Positions 57,525 to 60,489 of a DNA stretch of 64,000 nucleotides are shown in pieces. Source of the DNA: Candidatus Microthrix parvicella Bio17-1 (GTDB taxonomy: Bacteria; Actinomycetota; Acidimicrobiia; Acidimicrobiales; Microtrichaceae); assembly GCF_000299415.1 (NCBI RefSeq), contig NZ_AMPG01000001.1, forward strand, positions 806,001 through 870,000, given 5' to 3'. The notes under the pieces were generated by a model, which ran no database searches, was not told the DNA's origin, and worked only from the letters and a program-made list of their open reading frames with translations. Position numbers and translations under genes: made by a program. Position 1 is the stretch's first letter, and every line of letters begins with the position of its first letter.

Positions 57525-57650
57525 GACGCTCACGGTATCCAAGTACTCCAGCAAGCACACCTCGACAACGCCAACGACCTCACGGGCTGGAACATCACCG
57601 ACCTTGGGCACGGCCGCCACCTCGTCGAAGCACCCGACCTCACGCCCTAA
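57525..57650 (+). pseudogene. Upstream fragment of a gene split by the IS island
   Basis: Reads DAHGIQVLQQAHLDNAND, LTGWNITDLGHGRHLVEAPDLTP and then a stop formed only by the inserted DNA (TAA at 57648-57650). Removing 57650-60675 joins it in frame to ELPDADVLTQARADFG at 60683. Codon bias is strongly coding. The start is lost; upstream of about 57500 the frame is not convincing. No family recognised. Confidence 0.6.
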
Positions 57651-57689
57651 TGGGTGTGCTGGGTTCGTGAGATCCTGGTTTCGGGCCGC

Positions 57690-57883
57690 TGGTCGGTGAG
57701 CACTGTTACGCCCTGGAGCCCTTCGGGGATTCCTAGCGCTAGAGCGTGCCCCGGTCGGCAGGTTCGGGTTGCCCATCAAGCGCTCATGGGGTGTCGTGCC
57801 GTAGAGCACTGATCCATTAGGTCGCCGCTCGGGAAGCCCGCAGGCTCACACATCTGAACCAACCAAACCGAGGGGGGCATGCG
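57690..57883 (+). ncRNA. Candidate IS110 bridge-RNA region
   Basis: The non-coding stretch before the IS110 transposase has several short hairpin-forming segments (CCCTTCGGGG, TAGCGCTA, GGTTCGGGTTGCCC) and ends with a strong GAGGGGGG site. IS110-family elements are known to encode a bridge RNA in this 5' non-coding end. No core or loop match can be verified from the single window. Confidence 0.3.
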
Positions 57884-59111
57884 ATGACCATTTTCGTGGG
57901 CGATGACTGGGCCGAGACCCCATCACGACGTCCATCTGATGAACGACACCGGCGAAAAGCTTGCCGCGAAACGGTTCCCTGAAGGGCTCGAGGGGATCGC
58001 GGGTCTCCACGCGTTGATCGCGGAGCACACCACCGACCCTGGCGAGGTGATTGTCGGGATCGAGACCGAGCGGGGCATGTGGGTCCAAGCGCTGATCGCC
58101 GGCGGGTATCGGGTGTATGCGATCAACCCGTTGTCGGTGTCTCGCTACCGGGACCGACACAACGTCGCCGGCGCTAAGTCCGACCCTGGTGACGCCAAGC
58201 TGTTGGCTGATCTGGTTCGCACCGACCGGCACAACCACCGGCCCGTCGCCGGCGACTCCGACGAGGCCGCCGGGTTGAAGGTGCTGGCACGGTCACATCA
58301 GAACCTGATCTGGGACCGGACCCGTCACACCAACCGGTTGCGCAACGATCTCCGCGAGTTCTTCCCCGCCGCACTCGTCGCATTCGAGAGCCTTGCCGAT
58401 CGTGACGCGGTCGCGGTGCTGGGCAAAGCCCCGCATCCTGAGCTGGCCCGCCGTCTGTCGGTCGCCCAGATCCGCTCAGCACTCCGCAAAGGCGGACGGC
58501 AACGGAACCTCGACGACCGGGCCACCCAGATCCAAGCCGCGTTGCGCACACCACAACTGACCGCACCACCAGATGTCGCGGCCGCGTTTGCTGCGACCAC
58601 GAAAGCGCTGGTCGAGGTGATCGCCGGGCTGAACGACGCCATTGGCGAACTCGAAACCGAGCTGGCCACCCATTTTGATGAACACCCGGACGCCGACATC
58701 TACCTCTCCCTGCCAGGACTCGGTGTTGTGCTCGGCGCCCGGGTGCTCGCAGAGTTCGGGGACGACCCCGACCGCTACGACACCGCCAAGTCTCGCAGGA
58801 ACTACGCCGGCACGTCACCGCTCACCATCGCCTCCGGCAAAAAACACGCAGTCCTCGCCCGACACGTCCGCAACCGGCGCCTCTACGACGCCATCGACCA
58901 ATGGGCATTCTGTGCGATCACGACAAGCCCCGGCTGCCGCCAGTTCTACGACCACCGACGAACCACAGGTGACCTCCACCACCAAGCCCTCAGAGCCCTC
59001 GGCAACCGGCTCGTCGGCTACCTCCACGGCTGCCTACGAACCCGCAGCACCTACAACGAACACACCGCCTGGGCCCACCGCCAACCAGCCCCAACCCAGA
59101 CCGCTGCTTGA
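57884..59111 (+). pseudogene. IS110-family DEDD transposase, frameshifted
   Basis: ATG 57884 encodes MTIFVGDDWAE, the standard IS110 N-terminus with the first DEDD Asp, but after GAG-ACC the frame is wrong and ends at 57982. The other frame from 57903 continues HHDVHLMNDTGEKLAAKRFPEG, then VIVGIETERGMWVQAL (Glu), KSDPGDAKLLADLVR (Asp pair) and a Tnp20 C-domain LPGLGVVLGARVLAEFGDDP and GTSPLTIASGKK (catalytic Ser). One extra C in the run 57918-57921 explains the break. Without a repair the protein lacks the first catalytic Asp and is probably inactive. Confidence 0.85.
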
Positions 59112-59239
59112 CCCCTTCCACACCTGGGGTGTCTAGTGTGCTGTCAGGCTAATTCGTAAAGAAAATGGTGGAAGCGGGAATTTTCGCGGTTCGGGCGCGT
59201 TGGTCGGGGTGTAACCGACCAACATGTGGAGGAATCGCT

Positions 59240-59515
59240 ATGGCCCGACGTGGACGACCAACCGTGCAGATCACTCTGTCCGGCAACGAACGAAAAACGC
59301 TTGAACGGTGGGCGCGACGGCATTCGTCGTCCCAAGCGTTGGCGTTGCGTTGCCGGATCGTGTTGGCGTGCGCGGACAGCGTCAAGACCAACACCGCAAT
59401 CGCGGCCGAGCAGGGCTGCAACCCGGCGACGGTGTCGAAGTGGCGTCACCGTTTCGCTCAGGACCGTCTAATGATGCTCACCCTCCCAGGTCATGCCCGT
59501 CGGTGCAGCCGCTGA
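59240..59515 (+). pseudogene. IS630-family transposase, 5' fragment
   Basis: 91 residues from ATG 59240 with GGAGGAA upstream: ARRGRPTVQITLSGNERKTLERWARRHSSSQALALRCRIVLACADSVKTNTAIAAEQGCNPATVSKWRHRFAQD is the HTH start of IS630 transposases. Homology ends at about 59470, and the DDE domain (about 250 residues) is missing. The 59150-59239 leader (GTCAGGCTAATTCGT) probably is the left end of the element. Confidence 0.8.
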
Positions 59516-59717
59516 GGGAAGACCAGGAATGAATCAAAATCTGGGGTTCGTGCTCGAAGCAACACTCCCCGGTCCTTCGGGCCTCGCACCAGACTTACAA
59601 CGGGCTAACAGCTCCAAGGGGGAACGGCGACCACACCCCAGCGGCCACCCGCCCATCATTTCATCCCTACCACGGTGGCGCACCCGCCATAGGGACTTAC
59701 ACAAATCGTTTTACAGG
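59490..59717 (-). mobile_element. Possible IS256-type terminal fragment
   Basis: On the minus strand this ends in CCTGTAAAACGATTTGTGTA, similar to terminal repeats of IS256/Mutator elements from memory. Several GC-rich hairpin segments follow but no transposase is present. It separates the IS630 and IS1182 fragments. Assignment is tentative. Confidence 0.35.
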
Positions 59718-59721
59718 ACCT

Positions 59722-60489
59722 CTCCATGGCCACAAGACCGCAGCCCGGAGCTTTGACGGATACAAGGGCCACATCGCCGAAGATCCTGACTCCGAGATCA
59801 TCACCGCCACGATCGTCACCCCGGGCAACGTCGGTGATGCTGCGGTCGCCAACGACCTCATCGACGACATCCTCCCCACCGACACCGACACCCACGACGG
59901 CGACGGCGACGGCGACGGCGAGGTGCCGGTTGTTTATGGGGACTCCGCGTATGGGACCGGCGGGATGCAACAGGCCCTCACCGATGCGGGTGTCGAGTCG
60001 AGATGCCGGACCCAGCAGCCCGTCAACCGGAACGGCCGGTTCTCGAAAGCCAAGTTCAACATCGATCTCGACGCTGACACGGTCACCTGCCCGAACAACG
60101 TGACCGTCACGATCCGTCGCAGCACCGACGCCACCACAGGCACCGCCGCCTTCGGAGACGCGTGTGGCGAGTGTCCGCTTCGCGAGGCGTGCACCACCTC
60201 GAAGGCGGGGCGGACGATCAGCGTCGGACAATTCGAAGCAGCGTTAGCTGCCGCCCGGCAACGACAGACCAACAGCGATTGGCAGGCCGACTACCGGGCA
60301 ACCCGGTCCAAGGTCGAACGGAAACTCGCGCACCTGATGTTCCGCAAACACGGCGGACGGCGGGCCAGAGTCCGAGGCCAAACGAAAGTCGCCGCCGACT
60401 TCGCGCTGCTCGCAGCAGCACGGAACGTCGCCAGACTCGGCGCGCTCGAGATGAGATCAACCCCCACCGGATGGGCCACGGCAACCTAA
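59722..60489 (+). pseudogene. IS1182-family transposase, C-terminal fragment
   Basis: The readable frame begins LHGHKTAARSFDGYKGHIAEDPDSEIITATIVTPGNVGDAAVANDLIDDILP, then a DG-rich spacer. VVYGDSAYGTGGMQQAL (catalytic Asp region) follows, then CGECPLREACTTSKAGRTISV and RATRSKVERKLAHLMFRKHGGRRARVRGQTKVAADFALLAAARNVARLG (Glu region and arginine tail). The N-terminal half is absent, removed at the junction near 59717. The gene cannot encode an active transposase. Confidence 0.85.

Follow-up and report, generated by a model that had tools for sequence, protein, structure and literature searches.

An IS110-group insertion sequence in Candidatus Microthrix parvicella with an upstream bridge RNA and a frameshifted recombinase gene

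The element and its copies in the genome

The window analysed here, a stretch of 64,000 nucleotides from Candidatus Microthrix parvicella Bio17-1, holds near its right side an insertion sequence of the IS110 group that comprises a long left end, a recombinase gene with a frameshift and a short right end (Table 1). The genome has two further full copies, C2 (locus L002, at C1:1628370) and C3 (locus L003, at G000:C1:508425), which are 86.6–87.3% identical to the window copy; homology to them stops at both ends of the element. The left end motif CTAATGGG and the right end motif TGGG(G/A)TGTCT are common to the window copy, the copies in its own genome and the relatives found elsewhere, nearly all of which carry them at a spacing of about 1.46–1.51 kb. 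The dinucleotide CT stands at both junctions of the window copy and there are no terminal inverted repeats, as is usual for insertions of the IS110 group. An empty insertion site was sought in the genome itself and in related genomes and none was found; the boundaries of the element thus rest on the comparison of copies. Among short matches in other genomes, those checked, three in all, are cut by contig ends.

The layout is that of the IS110 group, with a left end of 235 nt (57649–57883) and a right end of 23 nt (59112–59134). Assignment to the IS1111 group, in which the guide RNA lies downstream and the right end is long, was considered and rejected given the short right end and the upstream position of the RNA described below.

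Besides the three full copies the genome contains two degenerate ones: contig C4 carries a copy with an internal deletion and contig C7 a right-end fragment. At its left junction, C2 adjoins the end of an open frame of 500 residues, in which the junction GCC-TAA preserves a stop codon. Another IS110-type gene, with an open frame of 422 aa, was seen at G000:C1:146141 and G000:C2:993540 with equal scores. Directly to the right of the window element, positions 59165–60489 hold pieces of two other transposases (an ORF with an HTH domain and a DDE_Tnp_1_6 ORF), which makes this neighbourhood a nest of broken insertion sequences.

Table 1 Features of the element, in positions of the window
Feature	Position	Strand	Remarks
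IS110-group insertion sequence	57647–59134	+	includes the core CT at each side; ends CTAATGGG (left) and TGGGGTGTCT (right)
Bridge RNA	57671–57833	+	covariance model R1, 139 bits (window copy among the 54 leaders of the model); boundaries are those of the model, not mapped transcript ends
Target-binding module	57688–57759	+	outer stem around target loop; 5' arm about 57688–57703, 3' arm about 57746–57759
Left target guide	57705–57714	+	GUUACGCC plus core CU
Right target guide	57736–57742	+	GCGCUAG
Left donor guide	57787–57795	+	UGGGGUGUC; same letters as right end TGGGGTGTC(T)
Hairpin within donor loop	57796–57809	+	GUGC/GCAC; helix 4, nearly invariant, 97.7% of cells paired
Right donor guide	57814–57820	+	CCAUUAG; reverse complement of left end CTAATGG
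Original transposase start	57884–57982	+	gives a 32-aa peptide out of frame, MTIFVGDDWAETPSRRPSDERHRRKACRETVP, with catalytic D8
Remainder of IS110 recombinase	57903–59111	+	402 aa; Pfam, alignment of 37 relatives; holds E60, D100, D103, S317 (C2 numbering)
C-run	57918–57921	+	four C, against three in C2, C3 and the C4 fragment; copy comparison
-35-like TTGACC in right end	59108–59113	+	overlaps TGA stop; 18 nt before TCTAAT of the RE-LE junction in the excised circle

The recombinase and its frameshift

The long open reading frame of the element matches the Pfam families PF01548 (118 bits) and PF02371 (43.5 bits), and the intact sibling C2, whose ORF is 408 aa long, passes the NCBIfam model NF033542 'IS110 family RNA-guided transposase' with 193 bits against a cut-off of 140. 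A profile of 37 relatives matches the solved recombinases of IS621 (8wt6, E 7.7e-17) and ISCro4 (9t56), and ISCro4 and IS621 are also the best fold matches of the structure predicted for C2 (pLDDT 85.6), with a TM-score of about 0.75 on the target. Together, the Pfam, NF033542 and IS621 matches confirm the family assigned in the initial annotation. In the alignment of the 37 relatives, E60, D100, D103 and S317 are invariant and D8 is nearly so, the row of the window copy being one without it. These five residues align with D11, E60, D102, D105 and S241 of IS621, of which the change of any one abolishes recombination (PMC11208158). The DEDD set of a RuvC-like domain and a Tnp (transposase_20) domain with its serine are hence both present, and the window copy keeps all of these residues but D8 in one frame.

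The frame that opens with ATG 57884 and MTIFVGDDWAE ends at 57982, so that D8 and the other catalytic residues stand in different frames. Start, motif, C-run and the end of the 32-aa frame are exactly as first described, and in the comparison with other copies, proposed there as a check on the extra C, the run counts four C in the window copy and three in C2, C3 and the degenerate C4 copy. Relative to all siblings, this upholds the frameshift that sets the first catalytic Asp apart from the other active-site residues. Given this one-base insertion, the recombinase of the window copy is most likely inactive, and the copy probably cannot move alone. Past the lesion, the codon changes of the window lineage comprise 39 synonymous and 11 non-synonymous ones, where neutrality would give an N:S ratio of about 2.9. 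This points to purifying selection on the rest of the gene, and thus to a lesion that is either recent or a sequencing error.

The second of these options, in which the extra C was introduced by sequencing or assembly, would make the window copy a fully autonomous IS110 element; it deserves weight but is the less probable one. It draws on the nature of the lesion, a single base within a run of C, on the remaining 395 codons, which contain no other stop, and on the excess of synonymous changes just given. However, the other copies show three C within the same assembly, and a recent true mutation would leave the same pattern in the codons. Moreover, C3 is broken by a different single lesion, an in-frame TAA in the transposase, such that two of the three full copies (the window copy and C3) each carry one of their own, which argues for recent decay that is ongoing in this family of elements.

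Frameshift regulation occurs in other IS families, and the C-run could in principle be a programmed site that yields full recombinase at a low level. We consider this very improbable and rejected it, as no relative has the same arrangement: the extra base is absent from all copies in the genome, in 47 cases a related leader precedes a long ORF in a single frame that starts with the conserved motif, and GACCCCA is a poor slippery sequence, since the P-site tRNA would re-pair badly. A true, recent insertion that most likely disables the enzyme in cis is the reading that we carry forward. Searches of the genome for intact members of the subfamily returned none besides C2.

A match to the Rfam family RF02464 (Ms_AS-4, an actinobacterial sRNA) lies antisense inside the transposase gene, at 58709–58790 on the minus strand, and the antisense match recurs in all six relatives scanned (L002, L003, L076, L083, L086 and L105). 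It may reflect conserved coding sequence only, or else an antisense RNA directed at IS110 transposases.

The bridge RNA and its guides

The region upstream of the gene had been proposed as the possible source of a bridge RNA on the basis of clustered short hairpins and of its position, which is where IS110 elements encode this RNA. Taken alone, these hairpins are weak evidence, as a single-sequence fold of 57690–57860 is no more stable than that of shuffled sequences (z -0.10, with 86 of 200 shuffles as good). Comparative evidence, on the other hand, is decisive. Starting from a profile of the three leaders of this genome, we searched the fetched loci, obtained 71 distinct homologous leaders and used 54 of them, the window copy included, for a covariance model and a structure test. 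Compensatory changes were found in 19 of 26 pairs, none of 500 shuffles reached the observed value in any of five measures, and slid controls fell far below the real alignment. Helix 1, in the target module, is the clearest case: 12 of its 14 pairs show change on both sides and 98.9% of cells are paired. RNAalifold also placed a helix between the donor guides, which was left out since pairing with the DNA ends accounts for the bases concerned; a short outer stem of this loop, examined in its place, has 83% of cells paired. The covariance search suggested in the initial annotation thus recovers the window leader with the model of the 54 (Table 1), and the bridge RNA itself holds up, each of its four guide segments having been located and tested.

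Given this structure, we compared the guides with the DNA that they should pair with. The left target guide of the window copy, GUUACGCC with its CU, matches the element's own flank at 8 Watson-Crick positions and 1 wobble of 10; the right guide matches at 5 plus 2 wobbles of 7, a fit whose strict matches are no better than those with the flanks of the siblings (3 of 5 each). Across 47 complete elements the matches exceed chance by far. Left guides match their own flanks at 222 of 376 positions (permuted mean 119.8, sd 8.1, maximum 154) and right guides at 197 of 235 (permuted mean 93.8, sd 6.3, maximum 118), with none of 5000 permutations reaching the observed value on either side. The target site of the window copy scores 10.5 of 13, a score reached by 3 of the 5857 CT sites in the window. 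The right guides of C2 and C3 match their own, differing flanks perfectly, and the target guides of C2 fit the flanks of the window copy poorly. Where near-identical copies share a genome, such as the three in Mycobacterium bohemicum, their sites agree mostly in the bases that adjoin the core. The donor side is conserved: in the window copy, C2 and most relatives, the left donor guide TGGG(G/A)TGTC equals the right end, and the right donor guide CCATTAG is the reverse complement of the left end.

One could also read the leader as a plain 5' untranslated or attenuator region whose hairpins arose by chance, with no guide RNA, and cite for this a fold energy equal to that of shuffles and an Rfam scan in which no family matched the window leader. 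This reading is already contradicted by the compensatory evolution of the leader's structure, by a hypervariable loop whose sequence follows the flanks of the element that carries it and by a conserved loop that matches both element ends.

The right end also contributes to what may be the promoter of this RNA. TTGACA with at most one mismatch occurs at the same place in 56 of 57 right ends, and joining of the ends puts this -35-like element 17–18 nt before TCTAAT. The ends of the window copy would thus hold two putative half-promoters that form TTGACM-N18-TCTAAT only in the circular form. A circle promoter has been reported for IS621 (PMC11208158), and the matching layout suggests that the integrated window copy would make little bridge RNA unless a flanking promoter reads in.

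Orphan bridge RNAs were sought in the same genome, and only the four known copies were found. The leader of the internally deleted copy (L039, G000:C4:81883-82816) retains a score of 97 bits against the bridge-RNA model. One relative (L134, the same as L011/L041) carries two tandem bridge-RNA-like leaders (927–1054 and 1307–1445) upstream of a single transposase gene; their left guides are identical and their right guides nearly so.

Known systems and mobilisation in trans

The element belongs to the known IS110, bridge-RNA kind and is not a new kind. It resembles IS621 of E. coli (PMC11208160, PMC11208158) in its DEDD and Ser recombinase, a long left end that encodes the bridge RNA, a pair of internal loops carrying left and right guides, the CT core and, here putatively, a promoter at the RE-LE junction. 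It differs in that the recombinases are only about 19% identical in the structure alignment and 408 aa long as opposed to 326 aa in IS621, in its guides and in the frameshift of the window copy. With the seekRNA elements ISEc21 and ISEc11 of the IS110 and IS1111 families (PMC11187229) it shares an upstream non-coding guide region (ISEc21) and presumably also the circular intermediate with a junction promoter and an RNA that works in cis or in trans, whereas hosts and sequences differ and the RNA of ISEc11 lies downstream rather than upstream. A further likeness is to IS110-family transposase genes of Mycobacterium, Rhodococcus and Acidimicrobiia (loci L075–L134), mostly at 55–82% protein identity, with a homologous leader, the end motifs CTAATGGG and TGGGRTGTCT and the same -35-like right end; their target guides are different and most of them have an intact recombinase.

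In IS621, the element leaves as a circle whose joined ends form a promoter for bridge RNA and recombinase (PMC11208160, PMC11208158). By analogy, the donor loop of the present RNA would pair with the joined ends and the target loop with the chromosomal site around the CT core, and a tetramer with composite RuvC/Ser active sites would exchange the strands. In the window copy, a recent insertion of one base would have parted the first catalytic Asp from the remainder, and the copy could then be mobilised in trans by the intact recombinase of C2, given its own RNA. The initial suggestion that the copy is dead in cis yet recognisable by a functional copy elsewhere is plausible on these sequence grounds: the end and donor loop motifs are identical in both copies, so the C2 recombinase could recognise the window copy, and the poor fit of the C2 target guides to the window flanks means that mobilisation would probably need the window copy's own RNA. 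Bridge and seek RNAs do work in trans (PMC11208160, PMC11187229). Altogether, we hold with a probability of roughly 0.9 that this is an IS110-group element with an upstream bridge RNA, in which a one-base insertion likely inactivates the recombinase while ends and RNA are well formed, and which C2 could mobilise in trans if the window RNA is made.

A literature search on non-autonomous IS110 elements with a bridge RNA found no paper in the collection searched. The analysis adds a well-supported set of about 70 distinct actinobacterial bridge-RNA leaders, of which the one in the window matches no Rfam family. It also describes a set that occurs naturally within a single genome: three sister copies whose target guides differ and fit the respective flanks, and of which only one has an intact recombinase. 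This set makes the use of bridge RNAs in trans and the change of target guides between copies directly testable.

A more speculative, and on balance doubtful, extension is that broken copies with intact, differently programmed bridge RNAs (the window copy, C3 and possibly C4) might supply the single intact recombinase, that of C2, with a pool of target guides and so widen the set of sites within reach of the family. In the IS621 structures, the target and donor loops of one complex come from two RNA molecules (PMC11208158), so that mixing the RNAs of different copies would be mechanically possible.
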